DNA from: Theionarchaea archaeon
GTDB lineage: Archaea > Methanobacteriota_B > Thermococci > Methanofastidiosales > SZ-28-30
Length of the DNA: 64,000 nt
Assembly: GCA_018992685.1 (NCBI GenBank)
Contig: JACVGT010000001.1
Span: 100,458-164,457 of the forward strand
Direction of reading: 5' to 3'
The notes beneath the pieces were generated by a model. It made no database searches and was not told the origin of the DNA. It worked only from the letters and a program-made list of their open reading frames with translations. Made by a program: the position numbers and the translations under genes. Below are positions 8,668 to 46,967 of the stretch, piece by piece; positions within the stretch are counted from its first letter, which is position 1; each line of letters starts with the position of its first letter.

Positions 8668-8675
8668 CTTATAAG
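8668..8675 (+). promoter_or_regulatory. TATA box of the PEP-synthase-like operon
   Basis: CTTATAAG, preceded by an A-rich BRE-like AAAC, is centred about 26 nt before the ATG at 8697. This predicts a leaderless two-gene transcript. Confidence 0.6.
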
Positions 8676-8696
8676 CCTCCTGCCTCAAGAAGGTGC

Positions 8697-11162: not shown

Positions 11163-11163
11163 C

Positions 11164-12039: not shown

Positions 12040-12343
12040 ATTAAAAATAAAGGGCAGCAGGAGGAGGAAAGGGATATTCTCATTGTTCTTTGAGTGACTC
12101 CACGCATTTCCTGGGATTCTATGGTGTCGTTGCATCAGGATACTCCATATTCTCCCCACATATACCCCGGAAATAAACTACACCAACATGCTTCTCAGGA
12201 GGATTTCCCACCCGTGACCAGCCCCTTTTCTTAAGGCAATCATCGAAACATTTATAAGTATGTAGATATGCTACCTGCATAGCAAGTCTACCTAGTAGAG
12301 GATGGAGGAGAGAACATAGATAACAGGTTGTGAGGTGTACTAG
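12040..12343. promoter_or_regulatory. Intergenic region with TATA box for the epimerase gene
   Basis: TTTATAAGTA at 12251-12260 is a clear TATA box. Transcription should start near 12280, giving a leader of about 60 nt that contains a GAGGTG ribosome site 5 nt before the ATG at 12344. No gene is seen in the gap. Confidence 0.55.
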
Positions 12344-13327: not shown

Positions 13328-13480
13328 AACCTTCTTCTTTTTCTGTGTTCCCTTTTCGACTATTTGAAGAGAACCACAGAGTTCCATCTGATGTTGTCAC
13401 AGGGGTCAGGGAAATTGTGGGTTTCATTCTCCTGGGCTGTGGTCAGTCCATCTCATGATCCATTGAAGGGTATTGATTCT

Positions 13481-14596: not shown

Positions 14597-14636
14597 GCAC
14601 GTACTCTTCTAAGACCTATAAAAATATTGAGGTTTG

Positions 14637-21096: not shown

Positions 21097-24000
21097 CTAG
21101 AACTCAAGCATCTCCAGTAGGATTTCTATGAGTTCTCTGTACGCTTTGTTTCTCTGGTAACTCCAGTGAATTGAGGCGATGTAATTTCCCTCGTTGTAGT
21201 ACTGCTCAGAGTTTTCACAGCACTCTGCTACAAGGGGCAGCAGCTCCTGCACCCTCTGCCATTCTTCGGGGTACATCTTGTCCAGTCCCTTTTCCAGCAC
21301 CAGATTCATCAGATGGTTCACCACATCTTCCAGACTCTGGCAACAGGGGGTTCTTTCATTGATTTCGAACGTGGGATCACCGCTCTTGATCCGTTCGATG
21401 AGATCCCTGAACTCTCTGAAGCAATTGTCTTTGAGGTAGCGTGCCAGAGGACGGTAAAGCAGCTTTGGCTGATATGGTGTTTTGAGGGAGGGGACAGGGA
21501 TGCGTGCTGATCCCTCGCCTGACACCGGGGGGAGCCCATGATATTCTCCGGTTACAACGACTCTGTTACGAGCTGTCGGTTCCAGACCATTAAAGATTGC
21601 GGCAAACGTAATGATTCTGACATCTCCTGGCGCTAGGGGACCAATGTTGTTCCAGATGATGGTAGTAGTACCGTCAAGATTGGATACCACTAGGTCTGGG
21701 AGGACACTTGCTGCGTTTGCGTAATCCAGTCCAGGGGAAAGAGTATCCACCACCTGCACTGGGTCCAGGGGAAGCTGTCCCACATTGGTTATGGTGATGG
21801 TAAACGTCAAAACGTCTCCCTCTTGAGCCGTCTTAGGAGAGACCGATTTCACGACACCTATGGCGAGAGTCAATGGTGTCCCTGATACAGTGATTGTTGA
21901 GAAGTCCTGGTCATCTTCCCCAGGAACGTCGTTGCCGGGGGTTGAATCGGGATCGAGACACTCAGAAGTGTGAACCTGAGCGATATTCGTGATTACTCCT
22001 GTTCCAGTGACTTGAGCCGTGATCTGGAGAGTGGCGGAGGCTCCACTCGCAAGGGTAGTGACAGTCCAGATGCCTGAGCCACTGTCATAGGTTCCCTGGC
22101 TCACAACACTTGAGACGTAGCTCAATCCTGTGGGTAGAACATCTTCCACCGTCATGTCGGTGCAAGCGTCTGGTCCATCATTGTAGACGATAATGGTGAA
22201 AGTTATGGTATCTCCCACATTTGGATAGGGATTGCTGACCGTCTTTTCTACCCTTAAGTCAGCCGTGGGTGGTGCAGCTGTCTCTGAATCTTCGTCATCT
22301 TCACTCTGGTCTCCATCATCGTTGTCAGGTGTTGAATCAGGATCAGTGTGGTCTGATGCCGTCACTTGAGCTACATTCGTGTAGGTACCAGGAATCTGTA
22401 CCACCACCTGGAACGTCAAAACCACATTGCTGCCATTTGCCAGGCTGTTGATCGTCCAGGTCAGAATGGGATCGCCTGAATCATCTCTGGAATCTCCACC
22501 TGCTATCGTCCCTGCAGCGTAGACAAATCCACTGGGTATGAAATCCTCCACCGTCACGTTGGTGGCTGTATCAGGTCCATCATTGTAGACCGTGATGGTG
22601 AAGGTTATAGTGTCTCCTGGATCGGGAATAGAGTTGTCAACACTTTTCTTGATCCACAGATCAGCCTGCTGCGGTCGAGCCGTCTCTGAGTCTTCGTCAT
22701 CTTCACTCTGGTCTCCATCATCATTGTCAGGTGTTGAATCTGGATCATACTGGTCAGATGCAGTCACTTGAGCCACATTCTTGTAGGTACCTGTGGCCTG
22801 TACTACCACCTGGAACGTCAGACTCACATTGCTGCCATTTGCCAGGCTGTTGATTGTCCAGGTCAGAATGGGATCGCCTGAATCATCTCTGGAATCTCCA
22901 CCTGCTATCGTCCCTGCAGAGTAGACAAATCCACTGGGGATCACATCTTCTACCGTTACATTGGTAGCTGTATCAGGCCCATCATTGTAGACTGTAATGG
23001 TGAAGGTTATGGTATCCCCCACATCTGGATTGGAATCACTGACTGTCTTCTCAATCCGCAGATCAGCTGTAGGTACTGCTGCTGTCTCTGAATCTTCATC
23101 GTCTTCGCTCTGGTCTCCGTCATCATTATGAGGTGTTGAATCAGGATCATGCTGGTCTGACGCAGTCACTTCAGCTACATTCTTGTAGTCACCTGATGCC
23201 TGTACCACCACCTGGAAGGTGAGACTCACATTGCTACCGTTTGCCAGGCTGTTAATTGTCCATGTCAAGGTAGGAGCACCTGAATCGTCTCTGGAATCTC
23301 CACCTGCTATCGTCCCTGCAGCGTAGACAAATCCACTGGGTATGAAATCCTCCACCGTCACATTGGTGGCTGTATCGGGTCCATCATTGTAGACCGTGAT
23401 GGTGAACGTAATGGTGTCTCCTGGATTGGGTGTGGAATCACTGACTGTCTTATCAATCCTCAGATCTGCTTGCTGGGGTGAGGCTGTATCAAAGTCTTCA
23501 TCATCTTCACTCTGGTCTCCATCATCATTATCGGGTGTTGAATCTGGATCATGCTGGTCTGATGCTGTCACCTGAGCTACATTCTTGTAGGTACCTGAGG
23601 CCTGTACCACCGCCTGGAAGGTCAGACTCACATTACTACCGTTTGCCAGGCTGTTGATCGTCCAGGTCAGAATGGGATCGCCTGAATCATCTCTGGAATC
23701 TCCACCTGCTATCGTCCCTGCAGCGTACGTGTATCCACTGGGGATCACATCTTCCACCGTCACGTTGGTAGCTGTATCAGGCCCATCATTGTAGACCGTA
23801 ATGGTGAAGGTTATGGTATCCCCCACATCTGGATTGGAATCACTGATTGTCTTCTCTATCCTCAGATCTGCTGAAGACGGCACCGTAATCGTTTCATAGT
23901 CTTCATCGTCTTCGCTCTGATCTCCGTCATCATTGTTGGGAGTTGAATCTGGATCAGTCTCAGCACTAGAATACACCTGTGCAACGTTCTTGATTGAGCC

Positions 24001-31415: not shown

Positions 31416-32303
31416 TTATCCTAATTTTTTCAAAAATCCACAACCAAAAGAGGCATCAGGACCACAGCCTACCACAAATCCCAACCCTAGAATCCAGGCT
31501 GCTGCATCATTCATATCTTTGATTTCATACTCCACGATCCCCGTATATGAATGGAAGACCCTCTTATTGCTGCGGCTCGATCTTCTCTCCAATCTATGAT
31601 AGTGTTTCTCGCACCTGAGAATCCTTCCCTTACCCTTTACGTCCGGGACTGTTTCCCCACTCCCGTACTCATTAACGAGCCTGATGACTCTACTCCTAAT
31701 GAGAAAGAGAAGCCGTTCAAAAGAAAGAGGAAACTCATCCCCTGTAAAGGGTGTTTTGAACCCGACTGCAATTCTTTCACCCGTAATCCTTCCTACGTCC
31801 TCGATATCTCTTAATGACAGATTTCTCAAGTAGATTGTCTCTCCGTCGTACACATTCTTATCAGTAAACCCACATTCAATACTCTTAACATAGAACCTAT
31901 TTAGCCCCTCGTACCTCTGGGAGTATAATCCCTTTTTTCCCAAGAGGTTCATGCCCAGTATAACATGGGGCAAATACTTGGCGAAGTCTCCACAAAATAA
32001 GACATCCACTGATAGGGTAGCTTTCTCTTCAATTTCCATAGTTCTCCCAAAGAATGCAGGAATCAAAATGATTGGTTTAATGGGAGGGGCATATCCTCGT
32101 TCTGCTTCAATCTTTACGTATGTGTAAAAGAATAGACAGGTATCTTTCAATTCACAGGAAAGGCAGTCCTTATTATGGTCGGTGCAGATTGCTCTCCTCA
32201 AATTCTGCCCGAACCCTCCTCTGAATGTTGAACCCATCCAGTAGGGAAAGACTGCAGGAGTGGTGAACTCCAGATTCAGAGTCACTTTTGATAGTTGGAG
32301 CAT
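31416..32303 (-). CDS. cas6: Cas6 pre-crRNA endoribonuclease
   Basis: The 295-aa protein has the RAMP-type Cas6 layout. The N-terminal ferredoxin-like fold contains a four-Cys cluster (C-x6-C-x2-C-x5-C, residues about 40-57) seen in the PF10040-type Cas6 group. A C-terminal glycine-rich loop (GLGFVVGCGPDASFGCGF) ends the protein. Cas6 cuts the CRISPR transcript within each repeat, leaving an 8-nt 5' handle; the repeat here ends in ATTGAAAG, matching that handle. It is the last gene of the leftward interference operon, 21 nt after cas3'. Confidence 0.8.
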   Translation of the reverse strand: MLQLSKVTLNLEFTTPAVFPYWMGSTFRGGFGQNLRRAICTDHNKDCLSCELKDTCLFFYTYVKIEAERGYAPPIKPIILIPAFFGRTMEIEEKATLSVDVLFCGDFAKYLPHVILGMNLLGKKGLYSQRYEGLNRFYVKSIECGFTDKNVYDGETIYLRNLSLRDIEDVGRITGERIAVGFKTPFTGDEFPLSFERLLFLIRSRVIRLVNEYGSGETVPDVKGKGRILRCEKHYHRLERRSSRSNKRVFHSYTGIVEYEIKDMNDAAAWILGLGFVVGCGPDASFGCGFLKKLG

Positions 32304-32324
32304 ATGATCCCCAGATAGTCTCTC

Positions 32325-34418
32325 TCAAGATTCAAGGCTCTGCGGAATGAGATACTTTATCCACATCTTTCTGTTTTTGTCTAGTAAAACCTGAGATGGA
32401 GCATTCAGATTTCCTATTACACCTTTTTCTGACTTCTCAAAGATCTTTGGGACACTGATTAGTCCTGCACTCCATGGATTGTGATTAGGAAAGTGATTTC
32501 CGCAATAGAAGACACAGATGTCATCAATATAAGGATTGATTTCTGAATATACTACCCTTCCTACTGAGGAACCTTTTCCACTCTGTGAAAAAGCAACAAC
32601 AAGTACGTCCTTGATCTCGTCTTTATTAATATCACTTGAGGCCATTTGTTCCAGAGATACTGATAGATAATCATACCCATATAGGAGCTTCTTCTCTTTG
32701 AGACTCTCGAATAGATCTTCGTAATCTCCCGCTTCAATAAGCTCTCTTAGGTCATCAATTGTCGATTCTCGTGCCCAGAAGAACCTGGCAGAAGGTACCC
32801 ATGATCTCGTTATGACGAAGCCACTGTTGTGCAATTCTTCTCTGGTTCGGTCAAATTCGTAAATGAATGCTGAAAGATATCCGAATAGTGCATTAGAAAG
32901 TTCATCCTTCACCAATCTTGGCTTCACGACCTCTTCTTGAATTTTTCTGGCAGGAAATGACGTTTGTTGATTTTTTTTCAATATTTCTACATATCTCTCA
33001 TAATCCATATCGGGTACTTTCATGAATTCATCTTTTTGAGTGAAATCAGTTCCTACTACGTATATCTTGCCGCGGGTTCCTTCTTTTCTTCCACACCTTC
33101 CTGCTCTCTGAATCAACTGGTCTGGATTACAGAAATCGGTGATCAGAAGGTCACTATCCAGATCACATCCAACCTCTATGGCATGAGTAGTAATGAGAAT
33201 GTAAGGTTTCCTAGCCTCGTCCAGTGCTTTAACCTGTCTGTATACCCTTCTTCTAGATTCCGAAAACAGTCTTCCGTGGTAAAGGAAAACTGGGATACCA
33301 TTATACATATGCTGCCCATTGGCCTCAGGAGTGGTATTTAACTTACTGTAAGTATCAAAAGCATCACTTACTGTATTCCTGACAATTATTATCCTCTTTT
33401 GTATGTCTGTTTGGGCCAGATTGAGGATCGAATCAGTTCTCTCATCTGATTCTACATAAGCTATCTCGTAATCCTTTTTTCCAGAGTGCTCTTCCCCTCT
33501 GATGAAGATAAAACCTAATTTCTCCTCTAGGAGCGGCACTAAGTCTTGTGGAAGTGTGGCCGACATAACAACGGCTTTGATACCATAAGAAACCAGTGTA
33601 AATACAAGATTGATGAAGTTGGTATACGCAACGCTTTCGTATGAATGAGCTTCATCGAACGCAATCAAAAGATTTTTCCTAGCCATATAACCCCATACCA
33701 ATCTCAAGGGATACAGGAGGTTATGTTTTCCCCCATAACCGAGGAACCTGTACACGAATTCATCAAGTGTAGTCAGAATTACATCTCCTCCGTAGAAGTG
33801 CGATTTTTCTTGGTAGATGGAAAAATTTGATTCAGAAGATTCTCTAATCTCAATTTTGGTATAAGGAGATATTCTGACTTGAATCTCAAACGAATTTACC
33901 TCCTTGATTTTTCCTGCTATGATATCCATAATTCCTTCTACATTTGGATTCTCAATTCTTGTCTTGTTGATCGTAACTTCTCTTAATTGAGAATTGCCTT
34001 CTGAATCTACTTTTTTTGCCCAGAACTGCAATTTCTTCTTTATTAGTCCTAGATCTCTTTCTTGATCGAATTTCCTGATTTGCAGGGCTTCTTTTCTATC
34101 GCCCAAATCAACTATTAAAGTCTTTTCTTCAAACCTTTTACTGATGATTCCGATTTTGATGTAGTCTCCGATCCTGCCAATTTGATCCTCGACAAGACTT
34201 CTGGTGGGATAAACCAATATCAACCTCTTGTTATTGAAGAGAGCTGGAAGAAGAACAGCTTCAGTTTTTCCAGAGCCAGTCCCCGAAAGCAGAGTGATCC
34301 CTGACAATTCAGGATCATCTCTTGCTATGAGTTCCCAGATTTCTTCTTGGTATTTATAGGGGCTGAATTTTCCTTTTTTGAAACTCTCAATTTCCCGGAA
34401 GATCTCATTTGCCTGCAA
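32325..34418 (-). CDS. cas3': Cas3' DEAH helicase without HD domain
   Basis: The 697-aa protein is a superfamily 2 helicase with Walker A SGTGSGKTEA (about residues 45-54), a TRSLVEDQ motif Ia, DEAH near residue 256, SAT (motif III) near 287, and a motif VI region CNPDQLIQRAGRCGRKEG near 445. It unwinds and translocates along the non-target strand in type I interference. The HD nuclease is absent from this polypeptide and is encoded by the overlapping upstream gene, the split arrangement typical of I-A. Its start overlaps that gene by 14 nt. Confidence 0.9.
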   Translation of the reverse strand: MQANEIFREIESFKKGKFSPYKYQEEIWELIARDDPELSGITLLSGTGSGKTEAVLLPALFNNKRLILVYPTRSLVEDQIGRIGDYIKIGIISKRFEEKTLIVDLGDRKEALQIRKFDQERDLGLIKKKLQFWAKKVDSEGNSQLREVTINKTRIENPNVEGIMDIIAGKIKEVNSFEIQVRISPYTKIEIRESSESNFSIYQEKSHFYGGDVILTTLDEFVYRFLGYGGKHNLLYPLRLVWGYMARKNLLIAFDEAHSYESVAYTNFINLVFTLVSYGIKAVVMSATLPQDLVPLLEEKLGFIFIRGEEHSGKKDYEIAYVESDERTDSILNLAQTDIQKRIIIVRNTVSDAFDTYSKLNTTPEANGQHMYNGIPVFLYHGRLFSESRRRVYRQVKALDEARKPYILITTHAIEVGCDLDSDLLITDFCNPDQLIQRAGRCGRKEGTRGKIYVVGTDFTQKDEFMKVPDMDYERYVEILKKNQQTSFPARKIQEEVVKPRLVKDELSNALFGYLSAFIYEFDRTREELHNSGFVITRSWVPSARFFWARESTIDDLRELIEAGDYEDLFESLKEKKLLYGYDYLSVSLEQMASSDINKDEIKDVLVVAFSQSGKGSSVGRVVYSEINPYIDDICVFYCGNHFPNHNPWSAGLISVPKIFEKSEKGVIGNLNAPSQVLLDKNRKMWIKYLIPQSLES

Positions 34419-35154
34419 TGAGATTCACCTCCTTTGGTATATTCTCCTCAATTCGTTGTAGAAAATCTTCCTGCAATTCATATGATCTGAGCTTCCTGAG
34501 ATCATCTTTCTTATAGGGGGCAAATCGATACTCCAATTTCAGAGAATTTGTGATAAATTCCTCAGGAAACACTACAAAAGTATTGTCATCTTCTTGCCCT
34601 AAGCTGACTTCTGAAAGCCTACCCATTTCGAGATCTTTTGCATGGAAAATATTGCTAAGAATGCAGCTGTCTATCCAGTCCGCCATCTTCAGACCATACC
34701 AGTCCTTGATAAAAGACACCATGTTGTTTTGCAGTTCATAGGAGTCTTTCGAGCTCTCAAAGATGAATCCTGTATTCTTGTATAAAACGTTGGTATTGAA
34801 CGGTGAATGATGGAGTCTAATCAGATTGAGAACATAAAAATTCTTGAAGTTCTTGACTCTTTCACCAAGGTCGAATTCCACCTCCCTAAAATTGGGATTC
34901 AAGAGAAAATCGGGAAATTGAGAACCATGTCCAGGGAACAAAAGTCCTTTTCCGGTAATAAGGGCTTGCAGCCGGAATTTTCTCCTCTTATATAAGTCAT
35001 GGATTCCGGCAGCCTCCTCCAGCCAGGATTTGTATCCAAAGAATCGATTGCAGGCAGAACCAACAATCTTTCTCAAGTTCTTATTATGGCTTTCTATGTC
35101 AACGAATATAAATTCGCTTCCCTTCTGGAATGATTTTGCTATACCATTATTCAT
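34405..35154 (-). CDS. cas3'': Cas3''-type HD nuclease
   Basis: The 249-aa product carries an HD motif (AAGIHDLYKRRKF, about residues 45-57) and a downstream LIRLHHSPF, the metal-binding elements expected of a Cas3'' DNA nuclease. It would degrade target DNA together with Cas3'. The open frame extends 19 codons upstream, but GGAGGTCGTTC lies directly before the ATG at 35154. That start overlaps the cas5 stop by 8 nt. Sequence similarity to well-known Cas3'' proteins looks weak, so assignment rests on the HD motif and context. Confidence 0.7.
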   Translation of the reverse strand: MNNGIAKSFQKGSEFIFVDIESHNKNLRKIVGSACNRFFGYKSWLEEAAGIHDLYKRRKFRLQALITGKGLLFPGHGSQFPDFLLNPNFREVEFDLGERVKNFKNFYVLNLIRLHHSPFNTNVLYKNTGFIFESSKDSYELQNNMVSFIKDWYGLKMADWIDSCILSNIFHAKDLEMGRLSEVSLGQEDDNTFVVFPEEFITNSLKLEYRFAPYKKDDLRKLRSYELQEDFLQRIEENIPKEVNLIAGK

Positions 35155-36127
35155 GAACGACCTCCAGTTTCTGTAGGGTAGACAGTGGAATTCTCCATTT
35201 ATTTCCTGCATCCCCGTAATAGGGTCCCGAGGCTAGGGAATCATTGTTTCCGAAGATCCCTCTTTTGAATTTCCCCATTTGTCGACTGTAGTAGTAAACA
35301 CTCTCGGGTTTTCTTGGCTCATATACTTCGGTATGCTCAATATGTGGATCAAGGGGTATGATCACGCTCGATCGAAAAGACCCTTCCTTCTTTTCGAGTG
35401 ACATGACTTCTGATAACCCGGAAATAAATGCAAATCCTTCCTTGCCAATTTTGAATCCATAGTTATGTGTTTTATCAAGAAGGCTCAGCAAAGTTTTCTC
35501 ATGAGAGACAAGAAAGCCAGTGAAATCAGATGCAAGACAGAAATACCAATCCAAGGGCTGTCTGCGGCCCTCCTTCTTGAAAGTGCCGTAAGTTGGAATT
35601 CCTTGGTATCCTTCTCTCACTGATTTGAAAACGGTACGCTTGAAATACTTGCTCTGTCCTGATCTGTCATACTCTCTCTTGAACTTATCTAGATCATCTT
35701 TTTTCAGTTGTCCAACTTGTATTCTTTGCGCAATTAGATTCTTCACTGTTTCATCGCTAGGATCAAAGATATCCAATCCATCTGCTAAGGAATGCCCCTT
35801 TCCCAAATGTTGATATCCCATTCTAAAACTGCAGAAAATACTCGATCCAGAGCTCATAGAGTACGCTCCAAGGCTATTCAATCCTTCCGTATCTTCTTTT
35901 GTTTCTAGGATGTAGTACTCATCGATATCAGGGATTTCCGATCCAAATGCCCTTGGAGTAGGGAGCTCCTCATCATTTGCCAATCTCAATATTCGGTACA
36001 TGAACCCCGAGAATGTAGTAGGGGGTACAAACGAATAACTCGCAATAGTCTTGTACGATACCGGAACTTTTCTCACGGTTAGAGCTGATGTCGGTGTCAC
36101 CCGAATTGTCTTGAGGAATATTGTCAT
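35147..36127 (-). CDS. cas5: Cas5-family Cascade subunit (Csc1-like?)
   Basis: The 326-aa product begins like Cas5 proteins: a first beta strand with LTVRKVPVSYKTIASYSFVPPTTFSGFMYRIL, a pattern in which a polar strand is followed by PP-T-x-x-G. Cas5 caps the 5' handle of the crRNA in Cascade. The length exceeds usual Cas5 (200-260 aa). Subtype cannot be fixed by eye; the gene order large subunit-cas7-cas5 fits any type I system, and a Csc1-like identity is suggested only by the neighbouring zinc-bearing Cas7. Confidence 0.65.
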   Translation of the reverse strand: MTIFLKTIRVTPTSALTVRKVPVSYKTIASYSFVPPTTFSGFMYRILRLANDEELPTPRAFGSEIPDIDEYYILETKEDTEGLNSLGAYSMSSGSSIFCSFRMGYQHLGKGHSLADGLDIFDPSDETVKNLIAQRIQVGQLKKDDLDKFKREYDRSGQSKYFKRTVFKSVREGYQGIPTYGTFKKEGRRQPLDWYFCLASDFTGFLVSHEKTLLSLLDKTHNYGFKIGKEGFAFISGLSEVMSLEKKEGSFRSSVIIPLDPHIEHTEVYEPRKPESVYYYSRQMGKFKRGIFGNNDSLASGPYYGDAGNKWRIPLSTLQKLEVVHE

Positions 36128-36154
36128 ATCGGATCCTGCTGTTTCATTCTACAA

Positions 36155-37102
36155 TCACTTCTGGGAGGTGTCTTGCGACAACATTGAAGACTTGATTTCC
36201 TGGCCACCGGCCAGATTCCTGAGAAGCTCGTGTGCCTCCTCTCCCATGTACCTCTCAAATTTGTTCTGAACGCTAGTAGACTCTTTTGACTTGAATGTGA
36301 ATTCCTCTATTGCCTTCTTAATGTCAGTTATCATTGGACTTATGACGGGACGTTTTCCAAGGGGCTCAGTATATATATCCACTGTAAGGAGAGGTTCAGC
36401 CTTATCTTCTAGCCATTTGTGATGGAATACTTCTGCACCTTTTGGATGGCCAGCCCCAATCCTCTTAAGTGCTTCTAGGAAACTATAGGCCACCATCTGT
36501 GGTTCAGACATCTTCCTTTCGCCTTTTTCTGTATCCAGAAGCAAAGCGTGCCAGTACACTGGAAAAAGGGCACCTGCAACCACGTATTCTTTTTCATATG
36601 GCATGGGTTGAGAAGATCTATCTAAATGCTCCTTAGTAACGCCTCTGGTTTGTAGAAGTTTCTTAATCTCTTTCTTGCTATACTGTCCGATTTGTCCATT
36701 TATGATATAGGAAGGAGAACTGAGCCTTTGCTTGATCTCCGGTGACGCTTCTTGTATCGCTACCCCACCTGCTTGAAAAACTCTGCTTGCTATGGAGCCT
36801 TCTTCTTCTCCAGTTGTAGTCATCAATCCACCAAAGAGTTTGCAGAGATCGCACTTGCCGCATGTAGCTGGAATACCACATGATTTCGCTTGATCATCTC
36901 CTAAGTCATTAAGTTTCCACAATAAGGCCCTTCTGGCTACGCCTCTTACTTTTGTAGGACTCATGTAGAGTTTTTGAAGTTCTCCATCAATACCAGGTAC
37001 AGTGGCCATTTCCAGTCTATTTACATTGAGATCCTTGACATTCCCAAAGTGCAGTTCCTGTGTTGCCTCTATTATTGCATATATATCCATGTTCACTCTC
37101 AT
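36155..37102 (-). CDS. cas7: Cas7-family Cascade backbone with zinc cluster (Csc2-like)
   Basis: The 315-aa protein has an N-terminal RAMP strand (MDIYAIIEATQELHFGNVKDL) and a four-Cys cluster CGIPATCGKCDLCKLFGG near residues 78-95. The cluster is followed by a SIASRVFQAGG segment. The C-x-x-C-x-x-C-x-x-(Y/F)G pattern followed by S-R-V resembles the type I-D backbone protein Csc2. Cas7 polymerises along the crRNA. GGAGGT precedes the start, which lies 3 nt after the large-subunit stop, so the genes are tightly coupled. Confidence 0.7.
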   Translation of the reverse strand: MRVNMDIYAIIEATQELHFGNVKDLNVNRLEMATVPGIDGELQKLYMSPTKVRGVARRALLWKLNDLGDDQAKSCGIPATCGKCDLCKLFGGLMTTTGEEEGSIASRVFQAGGVAIQEASPEIKQRLSSPSYIINGQIGQYSKKEIKKLLQTRGVTKEHLDRSSQPMPYEKEYVVAGALFPVYWHALLLDTEKGERKMSEPQMVAYSFLEALKRIGAGHPKGAEVFHHKWLEDKAEPLLTVDIYTEPLGKRPVISPMITDIKKAIEEFTFKSKESTSVQNKFERYMGEEAHELLRNLAGGQEIKSSMLSQDTSQK

Positions 37103-37105
37103 TTA

Positions 37106-38800
37106 CTACATACCTCCTATTAGTTCTATTCTTTTTGCAATAAGTGCATACTTAACGCGAGTCATAAGATCAGAGAATTTTTTCTTCCTTCTTTTTGGAT
37201 CTGGTTCTTCCGCACTCAAGAGATCTTGAATATACATGTAGACTTTCAATATGTCATCATGGTACAGAAAGAGTCTTTCTCTTTCGTCGTAAGAAAATCC
37301 TCCTGATTCCTCGATCCATTTTTTTCTCTCTTTTTGTTCTTTCTCAAAATCTCCAAGTTTTTCTTCCTGGTGAATTTTGATCAGAAGATCTCTCAACAGC
37401 TTAAACTGCGTTTTGTTGCGAAAACTTTGTTCAATTGTTGTGTAATCTTGGCCTGTGATCTGCATGAGCCTATACAAGGCCTGCTCGGGGTTTTCAAGGT
37501 AGTAGGCTACCTTTCTTACTTCAGTCTTTAGGTCTTCAGTGTCTTTCCAAGTTTTCGGAAGGAATGCATCCAGAAGTAGGGCAGTTCCAAACACGATATC
37601 AGGTCTTTCTTCCATTCCTATCACCTCATTTCGGATTAATTCAAAGATTCCATCTTCCAAGAGAAGCTCTCTTTTTCGTGGAGCCAGATTTCTGGCTAAA
37701 AGACTAACGCTAGGCAAGAGAGAAAAATACTCATCATTTATTATAGCCCAAAGAGCTTTCTTGAACTCTCTTTCTAAAGGATTAATGCCTCGTATTCTTC
37801 TGTTAAATACTTCATATCCTAGGATGGAATCGAAAGCCTTCATTGCCAGAATCTTTTTCTTTTTCAGAGGAGATGCTGTCACTGTATTGACAACATCAAA
37901 ATCAGGATCAATCAGGATATTCAATGGAATTCTTGAAGCTGCAAGATAAGTGAGTGCAGTTTTTCCGTAGCTTGAAACAAGCCTGCTGTGAAAGCTTATA
38001 GTAATGAGATTTCCGATGCTTATGCCAAAAATCCTATTGAAGAGGTGCGAAAGCTCTTCTTTTTCATAATTGGCCTCGAGAGTTATGCAATTGTTGGGAT
38101 TTCTAATAGGGGAAATATAGGAAGCAAATAAACATATTGGGCAAAAAGAGGCATTCTTATTTAGAATCCGGCTTTGAGGTCTTTGAGATGCGAATTCAAC
38201 ATATTCCTTCTTGACTTCGTAAGTTATTGATTCTCTTCCGCAAAACATGCATCCAGCTACAACATCTCCGAAACTCCCTATCTCTTTGGTTACAGGGAGG
38301 GGAATTTTCTCCTGTATTATTATATCCCTTAGTGAAATGGGAGATGGCAGATTGCGATATTGCTGTAATCGGTACACAGATTGAATCAGCGCCCATCTTG
38401 ATTGCAGGTAGAAATCATCATATGTAGATCCCAAGAATTCCCAGAACGATTGATCTAAGTCGATCGGCTCAAATGTTGAAATTTCCAATTCAGATCCCAG
38501 GTTTCTGATCACGGCAAAATAGTTCTTTTCAAGGTAGTGCAAGAAATCTTTCACAAGCAATTCTAAGGCAACATTGAGTATTGGATCCGAAGCTTGTGGT
38601 GGTGAGAGGACGTAATTGAAGAAATCATGTTCAATGATGTTTTCTCCTTGAGGCTGATTGAATAATATCCATCTCAGATACAAAGGTTCATCAAGAGTTT
38701 TCAATAGATTCTTAGCCATTGGAACATCTTCAGGTTTCAAGTTGTTCAGATTCTGGAAATCATTTTTCCATCTCGCATATTGCACAACTTCTTTATAACC
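37106..38800 (-). CDS. Cascade large subunit with CxxC...CxxC (Cas10d/Cas8-like)
   Basis: The 564-aa product is the first gene of the interference operon. It carries two Cys pairs, CMFC and CPIC, about 38 residues apart near residues 200-245, a zinc-finger insertion of the kind seen in Cas10d and Cas8a1/Cst1. No HD motif and no GGDD motif are visible. It is much shorter than usual Cas10d. The frame extends to a TTG at 38848, but GAGGAGATATCA precedes the ATG at 38800, which is preferred. A TATA box (ACTTTATATG, minus strand, about 38880-38888) lies upstream. The exact family is unresolved. Confidence 0.6.
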   Translation of the reverse strand, partial: GYKEVVQYARWKNDFQNLNNLKPEDVPMAKNLLKTLDEPLYLRWILFNQPQGENIIEHDFFNYVLSPPQASDPILNVALELLVKDFLHYLEKNYFAVIRNLGSELEISTFEPIDLDQSFWEFLGSTYDDFYLQSRWALIQSVYRLQQYRNLPSPISLRDIIIQEKIPLPVTKEIGSFGDVVAGCMFCGRESITYEVKKEYVEFASQRPQSRILNKNASFCPICLFASYISPIRNPNNCITLEANYEKEELSHLFNRIFGISIGNLITISFHSRLVSSYGKTALTYLAASRIPLNILIDPDFDVVNTVTASPLKKKKILAMKAFDSILGYEVFNRRIRGINPLEREFKKALWAIINDEYFSLLPSVSLLARNLAPRKRELLLEDGIFELIRNEVIGMEERPDIVFGTALLLDAFLPKTWKDTEDLKTEVRKVAYYLENPEQALYRLMQITGQDYTTIEQSFRNKTQFKLLRDLLIKIHQEEKLGDFEKEQKERKKWIEESGGFSYDERERLFLYHDDILKVYMYIQDLLSAEEPDPKRRKKKFSDLMTRVKYALIAKRIELIGGM

Positions 38801-39053
38801 CATTGATATCTCCTCTAAGCCAAGCAATAAGTGGGGTTTGAAATCCAAGTTATGATCCCTTCTTCTGAGAATTGCCTACATATAAAGTTTTCGATACAGT
38901 GATGAATGACCCAGACAAAGCTAGACAATTCTTCTTATACATTATTATTTGTACCAACAATTCTCTCTCCTGTAGCTAGAAGTGAGGAGAAACACGTTCT
39001 TTCTGAAGCTGATGGAATCAAAAAGTATATTAACATCTTTGAGAAATAGGCAC
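38801..39053. promoter_or_regulatory. Divergent cas promoter region
   Basis: This gap separates leftward interference genes from rightward adaptation genes. A minus-strand TATA box near 38884 serves the large-subunit operon. A plus-strand AAGTATATTAA near 39022-39032 is about 27 nt before the cas2 ATG, implying a leaderless adaptation transcript. No regulator gene (such as csa3) is in the locus. Confidence 0.55.
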
Positions 39054-39335
39054 ATGTTGACTCTGGTGATTTATGATATTTCTGATGACAAGAAACGTAC
39101 TAAACTCGCTAAGAACCTCATACGCTACTCCTTGCAGAGAATTCAGTACTCAGCCTTTAAGGGAGACCTAAATTCCCATGATAGATTTGTTCTGGCCAAG
39201 GAAGTCAAAAAATATCTCAGTTGCGAAACAGACAGCATTTACATAATTCCCTTATGTCAACGGTGCTTTTCCCTCGTGGATATACTCTGTCAATCAGAAA
39301 GGTCCCTTCGAGATGAAGAAATAAAGGTGATATAA
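39054..39335 (+). CDS. cas2: Cas2
   Basis: The 93-aa protein opens with the Cas2 strand LTLVIYDISDD, whose Asp is conserved, and continues with R-x-K-L-A-K-x-L-x-x-x-x-L-Q-R-I-Q-Y-S-A-F, the family core. Cas2 forms the dimer at the centre of the Cas1-Cas2 integrase. The open frame extends to 38982, but this ATG gives the standard N-terminus and matches promoter spacing. It overlaps the next ATG at 39335 by one base. Confidence 0.9.
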   Translation: MLTLVIYDISDDKKRTKLAKNLIRYSLQRIQYSAFKGDLNSHDRFVLAKEVKKYLSCETDSIYIIPLCQRCFSLVDILCQSERSLRDEEIKVI

Positions 39336-40159
39336 TGTATTTCCTTAACGACGTGGAAAAAAAGTACTTACTCAGCCATCTCCACAGAGTGACAAGAAAA
39401 GTTGGAGTTACAGACGAGTTGCGGGGCTGGTCTTGGTTTGAAGAACCTCTCAAGCCGTACTACGACATTACCCTGCCCATGTACATAATCTGTGGCAAAT
39501 ACTGTTCCACATCCAGGGACGTCTACCTCCGCTATGTACAAAAAGAACCTGGTGAGCCATCCCCCAGAATGGTCTTTGGGCAGACCATCCATTCACTGGT
39601 AGCTTCCACATTTAATTCCTTCTTGGATACCACAAATCCTCCTTTAGAATCTGAAGACCCAAGACTGCAGCAAGTATCAGAGTTTGTGGAGGCAGAAGCA
39701 AAGGCTGCCATCCTGAAGCAAAAATCCCAACAACCATATGCCACTGAGAGAGATATCCTCCACACCAGTCTACCATTCCTTGTGGAGCACAGAATATCAG
39801 GCGAGTTACTGGGACTCTCTGGGCTCTTGAGCATAGATGCTTTAGACTATCTTCACGGGATCCTCTTCGATCTAAAAGTAGGGAAGAAAAAGGACTTTTA
39901 CAGGTTATATTGCACAGGATATGCTCTGGTGTTTGAAAGTATTTACGAAGTACCTGTGGATGTTGGATGCACTGTCTATATTGATTTCCGTAATGATCGC
40001 TTATTCATTTCAAAAGACCTGTTCCACATTTCTGATAACCTCCGCAGCTGGTGGGTTGAAGAGCGTGACCATAAGATGGAGCTGGTTTCCACAAGTGAAG
40101 ACCCGGGGAAACCTCGAACGTGTCCTGAATCTTGCAGTTATTATAATACTTGCAGGTGA
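39335..40159 (+). CDS. csa1: Csa1 (Cas4-family protein of I-A systems)
   Basis: The 274-aa product matches Csa1. It has an early LRGWSWFEEPLKPYYD motif, a YCSTSRDVYLRYV block with the first cysteine, an ILFDLKVG nuclease strand with Asp-x-Lys, and a C-terminal CPESCSYYNTC cluster. Csa1 is a Cas4-like Fe-S nuclease that works with Cas1, Cas2 and Cas4 in spacer acquisition in archaeal I-A loci. Its start overlaps the cas2 stop. A second, shorter Cas4 lies further downstream, so the locus carries both. Confidence 0.85.
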   Translation: MYFLNDVEKKYLLSHLHRVTRKVGVTDELRGWSWFEEPLKPYYDITLPMYIICGKYCSTSRDVYLRYVQKEPGEPSPRMVFGQTIHSLVASTFNSFLDTTNPPLESEDPRLQQVSEFVEAEAKAAILKQKSQQPYATERDILHTSLPFLVEHRISGELLGLSGLLSIDALDYLHGILFDLKVGKKKDFYRLYCTGYALVFESIYEVPVDVGCTVYIDFRNDRLFISKDLFHISDNLRSWWVEERDHKMELVSTSEDPGKPRTCPESCSYYNTCR

Positions 40160-40163
40160 TTGT

Positions 40164-41186
40164 ATGGAACGATTGGCTATTGATGGGTACGGGCGCTTCC
40201 TGGGAACTGAGCTCGGACAGATCGTGGTAAAGGAAAAAGGAAAAGTCATTGAACGGAAGAACCCTTTAACCTTGAGGCAAATCGTTTTCTCCGGGAAAGG
40301 TAGTATAAGCTCTGAAGCAGTCAGGCTTCTTGGAGCTCATGGAGTGGAAGTTCTGTTCCTGGATTTTGATGGTAGTGTGGTGGCACGGGTTTCTCCCCCC
40401 ATGTTGAAAACAGTAAGTGTGAGAAAGGAGCAGTACTTTGCCTATCAGGATGAAAGAGGAGTTCTCCTATCCAAAGAGTTTGTCAAGGCAAAAATGAGAA
40501 ACCAGATTGCTCTCCTGGGAGGACTGGCCAAACACAGGAAGGATACCCAGCCGGACATTGCATCTCAGATACAGGACATGAGAACCCATGTTGAAAAGCA
40601 GACCGAAACGCTTGAAAAGATATCAGGTTCATGCATTGACGAGGTAAGAGATGTAATTCAGGGGATAGAAGGGAGTGCATCAAGTCACTACTGGAAGGGG
40701 TTCTCTTTGATAATCCCGGAGGAATTCGCTTTTAGCACACGAAGTGGGAGGTATGCTGCTGATCCCGTGAATAGTATGCTCAACTATGGGTATGGAATAC
40801 TCCAGGGAGAGGTTTTGAGGGCCATTCATTTTACAGGGTTAGACCCTTACGCAGGGTATTTACATGTGGACCGGTCGGGAAGGAGTAGTCTCGTTCTAGA
40901 TTTCATGGAAGAGTTCAGGCAACAGACTATTGATAAGGTGGTAGTCCGGTTAGTTACCCGAGGGCAGGTCAGAGATAAAGATTTTGAGATGAAAGAAGGA
41001 TTGTGCAGAATAAGAAAAGAGGGCCGCAAGCTCTTGTTAAAGGAAATTCTGGAAAGATTTGAGGATTTTGTGAGGATAGAGAACCAGAGAATTGCCTGGT
41101 GCAATGTAATATTAAAGCAGGCTCGGTTGATAACTACGTTTCTGAGAGGCCAGGGAGCGTATACGGGATTTTATCTTCGGTGGTAA
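40164..41186 (+). CDS. cas1: Cas1 integrase
   Basis: The 340-aa protein is Cas1. It has an N-terminal beta domain (LAIDGYGRFLG). The catalytic Glu lies in IEGSASSHYW near residue 163. The C-terminal block NYGYGILQGEVLRAIHFTGLDPYAGYLHVDRSGRSSLVLDFMEEFR supplies the catalytic His and Asp/Glu. With Cas2 it integrates new spacers at the leader end. The frame is open 81 codons upstream, but the ATG at 40164 gives the standard N-terminus, 4 nt after the csa1 stop. Confidence 0.95.
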   Translation: MERLAIDGYGRFLGTELGQIVVKEKGKVIERKNPLTLRQIVFSGKGSISSEAVRLLGAHGVEVLFLDFDGSVVARVSPPMLKTVSVRKEQYFAYQDERGVLLSKEFVKAKMRNQIALLGGLAKHRKDTQPDIASQIQDMRTHVEKQTETLEKISGSCIDEVRDVIQGIEGSASSHYWKGFSLIIPEEFAFSTRSGRYAADPVNSMLNYGYGILQGEVLRAIHFTGLDPYAGYLHVDRSGRSSLVLDFMEEFRQQTIDKVVVRLVTRGQVRDKDFEMKEGLCRIRKEGRKLLLKEILERFEDFVRIENQRIAWCNVILKQARLITTFLRGQGAYTGFYLRW

Positions 41187-41187
41187 G

Positions 41188-41763
41188 ATGGAGGCCGATA
41201 TTGCAGTTTCTGATGTGGTTCAATTCATGTATTGCCCACGGAAGGTGTATTTCTACAAGGTGCTGGGGTTACCCATGGTGGACAGGAAGAAAATGACTTA
41301 CGGGAGGGATGAGCACGAGAGAGAACACCGAAGGGTGAAGGAGAGGAAGCGTATCTATGGGATTGAGAAAGACCAGATCAAGAAAGTTCAGCACGGGGTT
41401 TTCCTTGTTGATGAGGACGTTGGCTTGTATGGACAAATTGATACTGTTGTGGAGCTGCAGGACGGGAGTGTTATCCCTGTGGATGTGAAATACTCTGATT
41501 ATTCGGGTGTGTTCAAGAACTGGAAAAAGCAGCTTTTGGCATATGCTCTACTCCTGGAAAGGAAATCTGGTGTTAAGGTTAGGAAGGGGTTATTGTATTT
41601 CCCAAAACAGAGGAAAAAAGTGTTTGTTGAATTGAGTGCAGAGGATAAGGAGTTTTTTCTGAAGGATATTGAGAGAATTCGTGGAATGATAAAGTCAGGG
41701 AAGATGCCGCGGGGACGAGACCGTTGCGGATATTGTGAGATGAAGAAGTACTGTAAAGAGTAA
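41188..41763 (+). CDS. cas4: Cas4 Fe-S exonuclease
   Basis: The 191-aa protein has the Cas4 layout. One N-terminal Cys lies in MYCPRKVYFYKVLG. The RecB-type catalytic core has Asp in GQIDTVVE and Asp-x-Lys in IPVDVKYSD. Three C-terminal Cys lie in CGYCEMKKYC and complete a 4Fe-4S site. Cas4 trims prespacers and helps choose PAM-adjacent ends. It starts 1 nt after the cas1 stop and ends 152 nt before the first CRISPR repeat. A degraded copy of its 3' half lies at 46660-46833. Confidence 0.9.
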   Translation: MEADIAVSDVVQFMYCPRKVYFYKVLGLPMVDRKKMTYGRDEHEREHRRVKERKRIYGIEKDQIKKVQHGVFLVDEDVGLYGQIDTVVELQDGSVIPVDVKYSDYSGVFKNWKKQLLAYALLLERKSGVKVRKGLLYFPKQRKKVFVELSAEDKEFFLKDIERIRGMIKSGKMPRGRDRCGYCEMKKYCKE

Positions 41764-41915
41764 GGGTTAGTTAGGTAGTGTGGAATTCTGTGAGCTAGAT
41801 GTGCAGCGTGCCCCTCTTTATAAAGGGTGCTCCGACTTTTCGATAGGCACGCGGGGGTGCAAAAAAGGAGGTACCACAAGGCTTTTAAGGGCTGATTGAG
41901 TAGATGAGGGTGGCT
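41764..41915 (+). promoter_or_regulatory. CRISPR leader
   Basis: The leader lies between cas4 and the first repeat. A TATA box (GCTTTTAAGG, 41881-41890) is about 30 nt before the repeats and would start the pre-crRNA near 41912. Upstream are an inverted repeat (GCGTGCC at 41806-41812 with GGCACGC at 41846-41852) and a palindromic CTTTATAAAG at 41816-41825, possible protein sites for integration or transcription control. Bases 41806-41908 recur with three mismatches at 46865-46967. Confidence 0.8.
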
Positions 41916-44900
41916 GTTTCAAAGGTCATACTCAGAAAACGAGGATTGAAAGGTGACCTATCAAACTCAACCCACAATTCCTGTATCTGTTTCAAAGGTC
42001 ATACTCAGAAAACGAGGATTGAAAGACATGGTAGAGAATCTCATTGTAAGTAATGTCTCGGCGTTTCAAAGGTCATACTCAGAAAACGAGGATTGAAAGG
42101 GAGTTGTATTCAACATATACAAGATGGGCGCTTCCAGTTTCAAAGGTCATACTCAGAAAACGAGGATTGAAAGACTACTCCGCTGAATGTATAGTGTTCG
42201 TCTGAGAAATGTTTCAAAGGTCATACTCAGAAAACGAGGATTGAAAGGTCTGGGTCGAAATTTATCCACTCCTGGATGAAAGCGTTTCAAAGGTCATACT
42301 CAGAAAACGAGGATTGAAAGCATAACTCTCTTTTGTGCTCTTGAGCCATTCCTTTGTTTCAAAGGTCATACTCAGAAAACGAGGATTGAAAGTGCTTCAT
42401 GGTCATGGTAAGTCCTACTTCGGTCGTTGTTTCAAAGGTCATACTCAGAAAACGAGGATTGAAAGATTGATTTAACTTTCATTATCGTCAATTTATCACC
42501 ACGTTTCAAAGGTCATACTCAGAAAACGAGGATTGAAAGGAGTAGGACTCGAAAAACGAGGATTGAAATGAAAAGGTTTCAAAGGTCATACTCAGAAAAC
42601 GAGGATTGAAAGCCGTATCACCGGGTCTTTTCCCTCTTCCTGATGGATTGTTTCAAAGGTCATACTCAGAAAACGAGGATTGAAAGACATTTTTATGAAT
42701 TTTTCAAAGACCGGCGTCAATATGTTTCAAAGGTCATACTCAGAAAACGAGGATTGAAAGATGGCAGGAACAGCTTTCAGAATGGCTATAGCACAGTTTC
42801 AAAGGTCATACTCAGAAAACGAGGATTGAAAGGCAGCTCTTCGAGCTTCTTTAACTGGTACAATGCCATGTGTTTCAAAGGTCATACTCAGAAAACGAGG
42901 ATTGAAAGTTATCATGCTATCCCTATGATTCCGTCCTTATAAAGGTTTCAAAGGTCATACTCAGAAAACGAGGATTGAAAGTTTCCAGTACTACTTCTCT
43001 GAGGGTCATTGAGGGATGTTTCAAAGGTCATACTCAGAAAACGAGGATTGAAAGCACCTCTCACTCATAACAGTCCTCGTAGTAATCGCGTTTCAAAGGT
43101 CATACTCAGAAAACGAGGATTGAAAGGAATTATATTTCATTAATACACCTCACTTTTCAATAGTTTCAAAGGTCATACTCAGAAAACGAGGATTGAAAGG
43201 CCTTTTTAAGTTCTTCTTTGTCTTCTGGGAAAACATGTTTCAAAGGTCATACTCAGAAAACGAGGATTGAAAGCTACGTACTGATACGACCTCAAGGGTT
43301 GTATCGAATGTTTCAAAGGTCATACTCAGAAAACGAGGATTGAAAGTCTTCTACGCGAGTATGGATGACGAACTTGGCTGTGTTTCAAAGGTCATACTCA
43401 GAAAACGAGGATTGAAAGCAATGACGAAAGCTCTTACCGGAGAATACGGAGAGTTTCAAAGGTCATACTCAGAAAACGAGGATTGAAAGATTTGTAAGAG
43501 AGATCCAGCCAGTTCCTAATTCTCTGTTTCAAAGGTCATACTCAGAAAACGAGGATTGAAAGAAGTGTGTCCTCACTGGCAATAGTTCTTAGAGCATCGT
43601 TTCAAAGGTCATACTCAGAAAACGAGGATTGAAAGCACGACTACCTGGACGAACAATGACGGTTCCACCAACGTTTCAAAGGTCATACTCAGAAAACGAG
43701 GATTGAAAGACCTTCAGCTGCTCCAGTGATCTCTCCATTTCCTGGGTTTCAAAGGTCATACTCAGAAAACGAGGATTGAAAGATGAAGAGGGTACATATT
43801 ACTGTTATTATTCTGCGTTTCAAAGGTCATACTCAGAAAACGAGGATTGAAAGTAATTATTGGGGCAGTCGCAGCGGTCTATATATTGGTTTCAAAGGTC
43901 ATACTCAGAAAACGAGGATTGAAAGACTTCTGGTAGGAAAGCGATACCGCGTCCTCTTCTTGTTTCAAAGGTCATACTCAGAAAACGAGGATTGAAAGAT
44001 CTATAATTATGAGCAATAAAAATGCGCTAAAGTGGGTTTCAAAGGTCATACTCAGAAAACGAGGATTGAAAGATCTTGTCCGCGTGAACCGTGCGAAGTT
44101 CCTCCGTCGTTTCAAAGGTCATACTCAGAAAACGAGGATTGAAAGACGGTCACAATTACGTTTTCTGCACCAACTGCCTTTGTTTCAAAGGTCATACTCA
44201 GAAAACGAGGATTGAAAGAAATATGCCGTGTATGCACATCCCAACCATTCATGTTTCAAAGGTCATACTCAGAAAACGAGGATTGAAAGTTTCGTAACAA
44301 AGCGAAGCAACGCTATTATCGTCTCGTTTCAAAGGTCATACTCAGAAAACGAGGATTGAAAGAAATTCAAGACGATGCAGAAGCGTACTACATAGAGTGT
44401 TTCAAAGGTCATACTCAGAAAACGAGGATTGAAAGGCCTACTACCACACCTTTCACATACCCATACCCAGAAGTTTCAAAGGTCATACTCAGAAAACGAG
44501 GATTGAAAGGTCATCTCTACGTCAGCAAAAGAACACCCTTTGCATGTTTCAAAGGTCATACTCAGAAAACGAGGATTGAAAGGGACTCGGTGGGGAAGTT
44601 TGACGAGTCCTACGGGAAGGTTTCAAAGGTCATACTCAGAAAACGAGGATTGAAAGTTTATCATCTTCGCTGCACCGTCAAGCCACTCACCGTTTCAAAG
44701 GTCATACTCAGAAAACGAGGATTGAAAGGGACTACATTCACACCTAAAGCTTTTCCTGATCATGTTTCAAAGGTCATACTCAGAAAACGAGGATTGAAAG
44801 GAATCCTCCCAGAACTCTTCAATGCAGGTGACTTCAGTTTCAAAGGTCATACTCAGAAAACGAGGATTGAAAGGATCCATAGCCTCTCAGGATCTGTGCT

Positions 44901-46339
44901 GCCTCTTTGTTTCAAAGGTCATACTCAGAAAACGAGGATTGAAAGTTTATATGCTTCGTCAATCATCTCAATCCTCCTCGTTTCAAAGGTCATACTCAGA
45001 AAACGAGGATTGAAAGTCAGAAAAAATCCCGGAATCGTAGTTATTCTCCAGAGTTTCAAAGGTCATACTCAGAAAACGAGGATTGAAAGCAGTCCTCCCA
45101 CATCTCCGGTACGCGAGGGTCTATCGTTTCAAAGGTCATACTCAGAAAACGAGGATTGAAAGACAGTCTGGAGGAGCTACAAAAAAGCCACTACCAGAGT
45201 TTCAAAGGTCATACTCAGAAAACGAGGATTGAAAGTGTACCATCTTGCACCTATTTCTGTTGCGATCTCGAAGTTTCAAAGGTCATACTCAGAAAACGAG
45301 GATTGAAAGTCTGTTATGCAGTCTAAGAACTCGTTGATGGAACAGTTTCAAAGGTCATACTCAGAAAACGAGGATTGAAAGAAGAATTCCCCTTGCCTCT
45401 CTGGCGGCAATGATGAAGTTTCAAAGGTCATACTCAGAAAACGAGGATTGAAAGTTAAGGCAGTGGAATATATCTATGTGTTTGTGTACGTGTTTCAAAG
45501 GTCATACTCAGAAAACGAGGATTGAAAGATTTTCCTTAATAGGAAATAGATTTTCGAGTAAGATTGTTTCAAAGGTCATACTCAGAAAACGAGGATTGAA
45601 AGATATTGTGGCAGCAGCAATCGATGTGGAGTGAATTAAGTTTCAAAGGTCATACTCAGAAAACGAGGATTGAAAGCCGTCATATAAATCCCTTACCTGA
45701 TCCCACTCCATGTGTGTTTCAAAGGTCATACTCAGAAAACGAGGATTGAAAGCTCCCTGGTTACTATCATGCTTATGTATTCACACATGTTTCAAAGGTC
45801 ATACTCAGAAAACGAGGATTGAAAGTAACTGGAATATGTTCTCTTTCTGGCATGGAATACGGTTTCAAAGGTCATACTCAGAAAACGAGGATTGAAAGTA
45901 AGCTTCGTATTCATAAAAGCAGCAAACAATAGAAGTTTCAAAGGTCATACTCAGAAAACGAGGATTGAAAGTGTTCATTCTGGCTCCCCGGGTAGAAAGA
46001 GAGGAGTGTTTCAAAGGTCATACTCAGAAAACGAGGATTGAAAGAATTCCACTTCATCCAGATGGTCCATCCACCAGGTAGGTTTCAAAGGTCATACTCA
46101 GAAAACGAGGATTGAAAGCAAATGGAAGCACAACTTCGCCAGCATCACAGAATAGTTTCAAAGGTCATACTCAGAAAACGAGGATTGAAAGTTTTGATTT
46201 GACATTTTCACTCACCTTGTGATATTCGGTTTCAAAGGTCATACTCAGAAAACGAGGATTGAAAGACTCACCTGACGACATGAAGGCCTTTGAGAAATGT
46301 GCGTTTCAAAGGTCATACTCAGAAAACGAGGATTGAAAG
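41916..46339 (+). CRISPR. CRISPR array, 61 repeats of 37 bp
   Basis: I count 61 copies of a 37-bp repeat that begins GTTTCAAAGGTCATACTC and ends GAGGATTGAAAG, separated by 60 spacers of about 33-40 nt (mean period 73 nt). Every repeat I read is identical, including the last, so the distal end shows no decay. The ATTGAAAG end is the usual 5' handle of type I crRNAs and puts the crRNA on the plus strand, in line with the leader. One spacer (42540-42575) itself contains a repeat-like sequence. The count was made by eye and may be off by one. Confidence 0.97.
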
Positions 46340-46468: not shown

Positions 46469-46659
46469 TTCACATCCTTAGTCGATCATGATATTGATTT
46501 CTTAAATATGTTTCGGTTTGTATGACTGAAAATTGGAGAGATCTCTTTCTAGCAGGGTTTGTGTCAGTGGGGTGTTTGCTATTATTTGATGGTTAGAGAC
46601 GTGATTAAAATACTCATGAATCAGGTCGCTAATGGCGTGGTCTTTTCAATTGAAGAGTG

Positions 46660-46833
46660 GAATGGGGTTGTCTGGACAAGTTGACACTGCATCGACTCCA
46701 CATTATGAGAATATTGTTCCCGTCAATGTGAAATACTCTAATTATTCCAGCGTGTTCAAGATCTGGAACAAGATCACTGCGAATATTGTGAGACGAAGGA
46801 GTATTGTAAAGAAGTTGGGGTTGGTCGGGCTAG
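46660..46833 (+). pseudogene. cas4 remnant with internal deletion
   Basis: The translation reads GMGLSGQVDTASTPHYENI, then VPVNVKYSNYSSVFKIWNK, clearly related to the GLYGQIDTVVE and IPVDVKYSDYSGVFKNWKK region of the intact cas4. It then jumps to a sequence matching the last 11 codons of cas4 (CGYCEMKKYCKE at DNA level). About 50 codons between these are missing. The catalytic Asp-x-Lys has become Asn-x-Lys. It lies just before the orphan leader, in the same order as cas4 and leader at the array. Confidence 0.75.
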
Positions 46834-46864
46834 TGTGGAATTTCCTTGACCTTCAACTCGAAAG

Positions 46865-46967
46865 CGTGCCCCTCTTTATAAAGGGTGCTCCGACTTTTCG
46901 ATAGGCACGCGGGGATGCAAAAAAGGAGGTACCACAAGGCTTTTAAGGCATGATTGAGTAGATGAGT
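46865..46967 (+). repeat. Orphan copy of the CRISPR leader
   Basis: These 103 bases match 41806-41908 at 100 positions, including the inverted repeat, the CTTTATAAAG palindrome, the AAAAAAGGAGGTACC segment and the TATA box. No CRISPR repeat follows. About 9 nt downstream, CACCTTTGAAAT resembles the reverse complement of a repeat start, but this is weak. Confidence 0.85.

Follow-up and report, generated by a model that had tools for sequence, protein, structure and literature searches.

The stretch analysed here, called the window, comprises 64,000 nucleotides of contig JACVGT010000001.1 from a Theionarchaea archaeon. From position 31416 to 41763 it carries a group of CRISPR-Cas (clustered regularly interspaced short palindromic repeats and associated proteins) genes that, together with the array behind them, form a complete class 1 type I locus (Table 1). 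The minus strand holds the interference operon, which reads in transcription order large subunit, cas7, cas5, HD nuclease, cas3' and cas6. On the plus strand, cas2, csa1, cas1 and cas4 are followed by a leader and then by the array. The initial annotation of this region had described a locus with mixed features of subtypes I-A and I-D. Its genes are all present, including separate genes for the HD nuclease and the helicase and the pairing of csa1 and cas4 with cas1 and cas2, but the range given there stops at cas4, and the array is also part of the locus. Matches of Csa1, Cas1, Cas4 and Cas2 to their families lie far above the cut-offs. Four proteins of the window, namely the large subunit, Cas7, Cas5 and the HD protein, have no matching model in NCBIfam or Pfam, and for this reason the locus seems unclassifiable by eye.

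Table 1. Features of the CRISPR-Cas locus in window coordinates (aa, amino acids; nt, nucleotides; crRNA, CRISPR RNA)
Feature	Position	Strand	Remarks
Large subunit	37106..38848	-	580 aa from TTG, 565 from first ATG; zinc-knuckle CxxC...CxxC
Predicted small subunit Cas11	37106..37615	-	169 aa; internal ATG with Shine-Dalgarno site
Cas7 backbone subunit	36155..37102	-	315 aa; Csc2-like; PADLOC PDLC01388 'Cas7b' 1.4e-101
Cas5	35147..36127	-	326 aa; PADLOC PDLC01389 'Cas5b' 3.6e-26
Stand-alone HD nuclease Cas3''	34405..35211	-	268 aa; probable real start at internal ATG near 35154
Cas3' helicase	32325..34418	-	697 aa; PADLOC Cas3d 7.1e-65; TIGR01587 6.2e-40
Cas6 crRNA-processing endoribonuclease	31416..32303	-	295 aa; PADLOC Cas6 9.9e-55
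Cas2	38982..39335	+	TIGR01573 3.8e-19; domain from residue 25; probable start at internal ATG ~39054
Csa1 (Cas4-like nuclease)	39335..40159	+	PF06023 9.5e-73; TIGR01896 8.2e-55
Cas1 integrase	~40167..41186	+	PF01867 2.9e-80
Cas4	41188..41763	+	TIGR00372 1.4e-36
Leader	41764..41915	+	Placed by position, from cas4 to first repeat
CRISPR array	41916..46339	+	61 identical 37-nt repeats GTTTCAAAGGTCATACTCAGAAAACGAGGATTGAAAG; 60 spacers of 34-39 nt

The locus is complete and probably active in targeting DNA, and its interference operon is very probably an archaeal variant of the lineage known from Thermus and cyanobacteria as 'type I-B'. This reading draws on what the DNA itself displays, namely gene content and order, intact HD motifs, identical repeats, zinc cysteines and a conserved internal start; interference has been demonstrated in vivo for the relative in Thermus thermophilus HB27 only. 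Relatives were sought by translated search and one genome scan. The order large subunit-cas7-cas5-[HD-]cas3'-cas6 was found on 36 genome contigs and on plasmids of Thermus and Picosynechococcus. Bacterial carriers include Thermus, Meiothermus, Calidithermus, many cyanobacteria, Poribacteria, Chloroflexi, Binatia, Tectomicrobia and a deltaproteobacterium. The further archaeal carriers are two genomes of the Bathyarchaeota group (loci L007/L048 and L047), the second being the single further match among 398 genomes of the phylum of the first. Few of the archaea sampled have the lineage, which is common in bacteria.

One member is the operon on the T. thermophilus megaplasmid pTT27, where the PADLOC profiles PDLC01527, PDLC01388 and PDLC01389 score 464-1023 bits. 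The repeat printed for the HB27 'type I-B' system (PMC10989782) flanks the HB27 operon in 13+7 copies, and the operon of this lineage is therefore the system that was tested. That system blocked plasmids in vivo, lowering transformation by >99.5% with an artificial array, and is active with a TTC protospacer adjacent motif (PAM) (PMC10989782). The Microcystis I-B1 system, which includes a WYL protein (PMC11855584), appears from its gene list to belong to the same lineage. The lineage is a known and functional one, poorly characterised and filed as I-B. In the HB27 record, cas3 is made up of two overlapping reading frames (L006, 9603-12052), which are put down to a frameshift or a sequencing error; in HB8 it is one gene of 818 aa.

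The window and the HB27/HB8 operons are alike in the order large subunit-cas7-cas5-cas3-cas6, in Cas5, in an internal Shine-Dalgarno site with ATG and in the repeat end GAGGATTGAAA(C/G). The HB8 Cas7 is a full-length homologue of the window protein at 38% identity, with the same cysteines. In Thermus, however, HD is fused to the helicase, the large subunit has 766 aa, a WYL regulator is present and the adaptation genes are cas4-cas1-cas2 without csa1, whereas in the window HD and helicase are encoded by two genes, the large subunit has 580 aa and csa1 is present. Cyanobacterial I-B1 systems (e.g., Microcystis, PMC11855584) and the Picosynechococcus plasmids share operon order and Cas7 family with the window but differ in their fused HD-helicase (~900 aa), their large subunit of ~820-910 aa and their WYL regulator. 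The particulars of the archaeal form are a short large subunit, an HD encoded apart from the helicase and a Csa1-Cas1-Cas2-Cas4 adaptation module, all of which recur in the two Bathyarchaeota-group genomes (large subunits of 571 and 592 aa). The L007 proteins are 56-64% (Cas7) and 39-40% (large subunit) identical to those of the window. These loci differ from the window in the arrangement of their Cas genes, in their repeat, in cas6 lying on the opposite strand and in a ribbon-helix-helix-like and PIN-like gene pair between cas2 and cas4 (L047, 4063-4964; L048, 13187-14070), which resembles a toxin-antitoxin pair.

The Cas7 protein carries the four-cysteine cluster (C75/C81/C84/C87) that had been likened to that of Csc2, the Cas7 of type I-D. 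Both these cysteines and those of the large subunit are invariant across the family alignments and are therefore not a matter of chance. In hhalign, the lineage Cas7 matched Csc2 at 97.6% (E 4.7e-12) over 178 columns in which the cysteines coincide, compared with 14.8% in profile-profile comparison with 16 I-A/I-B Cas7 proteins, 0.2% with the I-A Cas7 profile and 47% over only 15 columns with 21 Csm3 proteins. A Csc2 hidden Markov model (HMM) made in this analysis matched 34/34 relatives (best 3.9e-7), and searching in the opposite direction with the lineage Cas7 found the Csc2 of two I-D loci, L115 (1.4e-6) and L114 (6.5e-6). By contrast, an I-A/I-B Cas7 HMM gave no relative below 0.3. The NCBIfam Csc2 model did not match the window protein. 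The first Foldseek matches of its AlphaFold2 model (pLDDT, the predicted local confidence score, 80.6) were I-D Cas7 proteins at 1.5e-8 and 2.7e-8, followed by the next at 1.1e-6. VIA-align favoured 7sba_A at Z 16.3, with a I-E Cas7 within one unit. The kinship to Csc2 rests on profiles, since pairwise comparison also gives a weak match to an I-B Cas7 (6e-4). By profile, HMM and fold, the Cas7 of this lineage is nearest to Csc2, and the zinc cysteines are common to both.

A backbone of this kind speaks for one of the two readings first proposed, in which the locus is an I-D variant whose HD domain has separated from Cas10d. The HD protein itself argues otherwise. The window protein keeps the residues H, HD..K, GH, HH and D, and a profile built from it and the HD portions of relatives with a fused gene matched the HD of I-B Cas3 at 96.5% (8.8e-10), compared with 1.2% for the Cas10d HD and 2.2% for I-A Cas3''. 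In Thermus and the majority of the cyanobacterial relatives, the helicase carries the same HD, and split genes are found in Poribacteria, Chloroflexi, Binatia, a deltaproteobacterium and all three archaea, a distribution that needs three changes on the helicase tree. Because most relatives carry this HD on the helicase and splits recur in bacteria, the HD did not detach from Cas10d, an origin that the profile comparison likewise disfavours. The gene is better seen as the HD part of an ordinary Cas3 that is encoded apart. Cas5 also departs from the I-D pattern, with hhalign giving 89.6% over 44 columns for I-A/I-B Cas5 and 1.2% for Csc1.

The best PADLOC profile of the helicase is Cas3d, and in an unrooted tree of 52 rows the lineage groups as a single helicase clade (100/99), separate from the I-D clade (97/88), the I-A clade (100/100) and the I-B rows. 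The branch uniting them with I-D against I-A/I-B has a support of 90/85, and this placement on the I-D side is suggestive rather than decisive. The window is set off from Thermococcales-type I-B systems by a helicase of another clade, by its Cas7 (the 14.8% given above) and by an HD that is not fused to Cas3.

The large subunit has the zinc cysteines C200xxC203 and C236xxC239 and neither HD nor GGDD, as had been observed. In line with an I-D variant, the best solved matches of its structure model (pLDDT 72) in the VIA fold comparison are, at modest Z, Cas10d proteins, 6thh_C at Z 6.9 over 95 residues and 6yes_B at Z 6.5 over 285 residues with a root-mean-square deviation of 7.6, and a I-B transposon Cas8 follows at Z 4.5; the N-terminal half of the model is poor. 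Foldseek with this model found nothing, and the family profiles gave no useful match among solved-structure sequences. Profile matches of the large subunit are confined to the zinc region and reach 34-38% for one Thermococcales Cas8 group and 11-12% for Cas10d. Type I-D and the window share the Cas7 fold, profile and zinc cysteines, a separate helicase and an internal Cas11, which in the window is predicted; the window large subunit lacks the N-terminal HD of Cas10d. Given the low profile match of the large subunit to Cas10d, a Cas5 unlike Csc1, an HD of I-B Cas3 type that relatives carry on the helicase, and a helicase outside the I-D clade, a variant of I-D is nonetheless improbable.

Placement in the 'I-B' lineage has its own difficulties, and several observations weigh against it. 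The window large subunit is only 16-22% identical to the bacterial ones and matches the PADLOC Cas8b profile PDLC01527 at 2.1e-7 with 28 bits, mainly in its C-terminal part, compared with 1023-1142 bits for the relatives (Thermus 1023, cyanobacterial 1142). In addition, two central stretches of the bacterial proteins (~89 and ~112 alignment columns) are missing in the window. On these grounds, the contacts of the window subunit may differ. The spacers gave no match to the phages or viral contigs tried: there were 0 matches for the whole-array spacers against phages and 0 for the starts of the six leader-proximal spacers against viral contigs, and accordingly no target and no PAM were derived. 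The viral contigs contained neither the window repeat nor the large subunit. The same two central stretches are also missing in L007, and archaeal large subunits measure 571-592 aa against 737-912 aa in other members of the lineage. Agreement of all subunits and of gene order with one defined subtype was found by half, in that Cas7, Cas5 and the order fit I-B and the large subunit does so weakly. Cas8b proteins are not one clade and have been divided into Cas8b1-15 (PMC13199841), and 'I-B' is for this reason used here as a label and not as proof of descent.

As the initial annotation had noted, no separate small-subunit gene is visible at the locus, and no Csa5 or Cas8a gene or profile match was found. 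Support was found for its suggestion of a small subunit translated within the large-subunit gene. In the window, GAGGTG is followed after 6 nt by an ATG at codon 412, 169 codons before the gene end. This site alone is not decisive, as one of equal strength arose in 159/2000 shuffles, and the case for Cas11 rests on conservation. A Shine-Dalgarno-like site and start lie in the same aligned stretch in 28/36 relatives, compared with 17.6 +/- 2.5 relatives after synonymous-codon shuffling (maximum 24, n=300). These data support a predicted Cas11 of ~19 kDa as an internal product of that gene. In three I-D loci (L109, L108 and L113), a short Cas10d of 614-622 aa is followed at its end by a separate gene of 143-160 aa that may code for a stand-alone Cas11d.

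The locus resembles type I-A in having HD and helicase on two genes and in the presence of csa1, and csa1 had been taken as a signature of that subtype. This use of csa1 fails on locus L114 of a Bathyarchaeota-group genome, where an I-D operon (Cas10d with HD, Csc2) lies beside a Csa1-Cas1-Cas2-Cas4 module (5393-14843). The Cas1 proteins of L114 and L007 hardly differ (tree branches 0.057 and 0.036), and L114 also has a Cas6 and an adaptation module close to identical with those of L007. Two effector types have thus been swapped on one adaptation module in a recent exchange. As an I-D operon is paired with a near-identical module, csa1 does not point to I-A here and was discarded as a subtype marker. 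The window Cas7, Cas3'' and helicase come from families other than those of I-A, the helicase falls outside the I-A clade and no Csa5 gene is present. Membership of I-A is ruled out by the Cas7, HD and helicase comparisons, and its probability is negligible.

The array is free of repeat decay, all 61/61 repeats being identical. Spacer 9 (42540-42575) includes AAACGAGGATTGAAA, a part of the repeat, as if it had been taken from CRISPR DNA. Beyond the array, at 46632-46966, a degraded copy of the cas4 3' part (~80% identical) is followed by a copy of 104 nt of the leader (46863-46966, 97% identity), after which there are no repeats. Elsewhere in the same genome (contig C22, 3161-3343), a second mini-array has the same repeat (two perfect copies, one mismatched), two spacers and no recognisable leader, and it looks like an off-target spacer insertion. 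A second type I locus of this genome (contig C26, 4925-11477) has a Thermococcales-like I-B make-up, with Cas6, a 511-aa large subunit, Cas7, Cas5, an 857-aa Cas3, Cas4 and Cas1. In the remainder of the window, tandem repeats of 402 bp (22139-23956, 4.5 copies) and 126 bp (50942-51189, 2 copies) are probably repeats inside large surface-type proteins. Scanning the window with Rfam and for tRNAs found nothing.

From these parts, a working scheme can be proposed. The repeat transcript would be cut by Cas6, and the resulting crRNA would be bound by several copies of the Csc2-like Cas7 together with Cas5, the large subunit and the internally translated Cas11. This complex would open target DNA beside a PAM to form an R-loop, and the helicase Cas3' may then be recruited together with the HD nuclease Cas3'', acting in trans, to degrade the target. 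New spacers would be trimmed and inserted at the leader by Cas1-Cas2 with Cas4 and Csa1.

To judge from its sequences, the lineage is a mosaic of a Csc2-like Cas7, an I-A/I-B-like Cas5, an I-B-like HD and a helicase clade of its own. Alternatively to its filing under I-B, it may stand apart from I-A, I-B and I-D as a subtype of its own that preserves an intermediate between ancestors resembling I-D and the type I systems that have Cas3. The mosaic itself, the helicase clade placed between I-D and I-A/I-B, and the lack of a single Cas8b clade (PMC13199841) fit this possibility, as does a model in the literature that has HD passing between Cas10d and the helicase (PMC10212523). On the other hand, the mosaic may reflect shuffling of modules and not descent, the trees are unrooted with 90/85 not decisive, the large subunit matches no one class decisively, and the bacterial members already stand under I-B in current classifications (PMC11855584, PMC10989782). 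A distinct branch, the second of the readings first proposed, is supported as far as the helicase goes, which lies apart from I-A, I-B and I-D. A separate status is possible but less likely than not by a clear measure. On similarly tentative grounds, one could place such a subtype near the root of I-D and not within a natural I-B, with a Csc2-derived backbone joined to a Cas3-type HD and Cas5, and the archaeal split of HD and helicase keeping the arrangement from before or during their joining.

Type I-B, the most abundant of the type I subtypes and the least coherent, has Cas8b proteins that do not form one clade (PMC13199841). What makes the 'I-B' lineage described here interesting is that its backbone protein is of I-D type and that HD and helicase have been split more than once, and the findings caution that loci are not to be typed by csa1 or by the position of HD. 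T. thermophilus HB27 is a thermophilic and editable relative, which eases a test of the structure and of the Cas11 prediction. With an I-D-type backbone and an HD that is split from or fused to its helicase, the lineage offers a testable case for the origin of type I systems from I-D-like ancestors.

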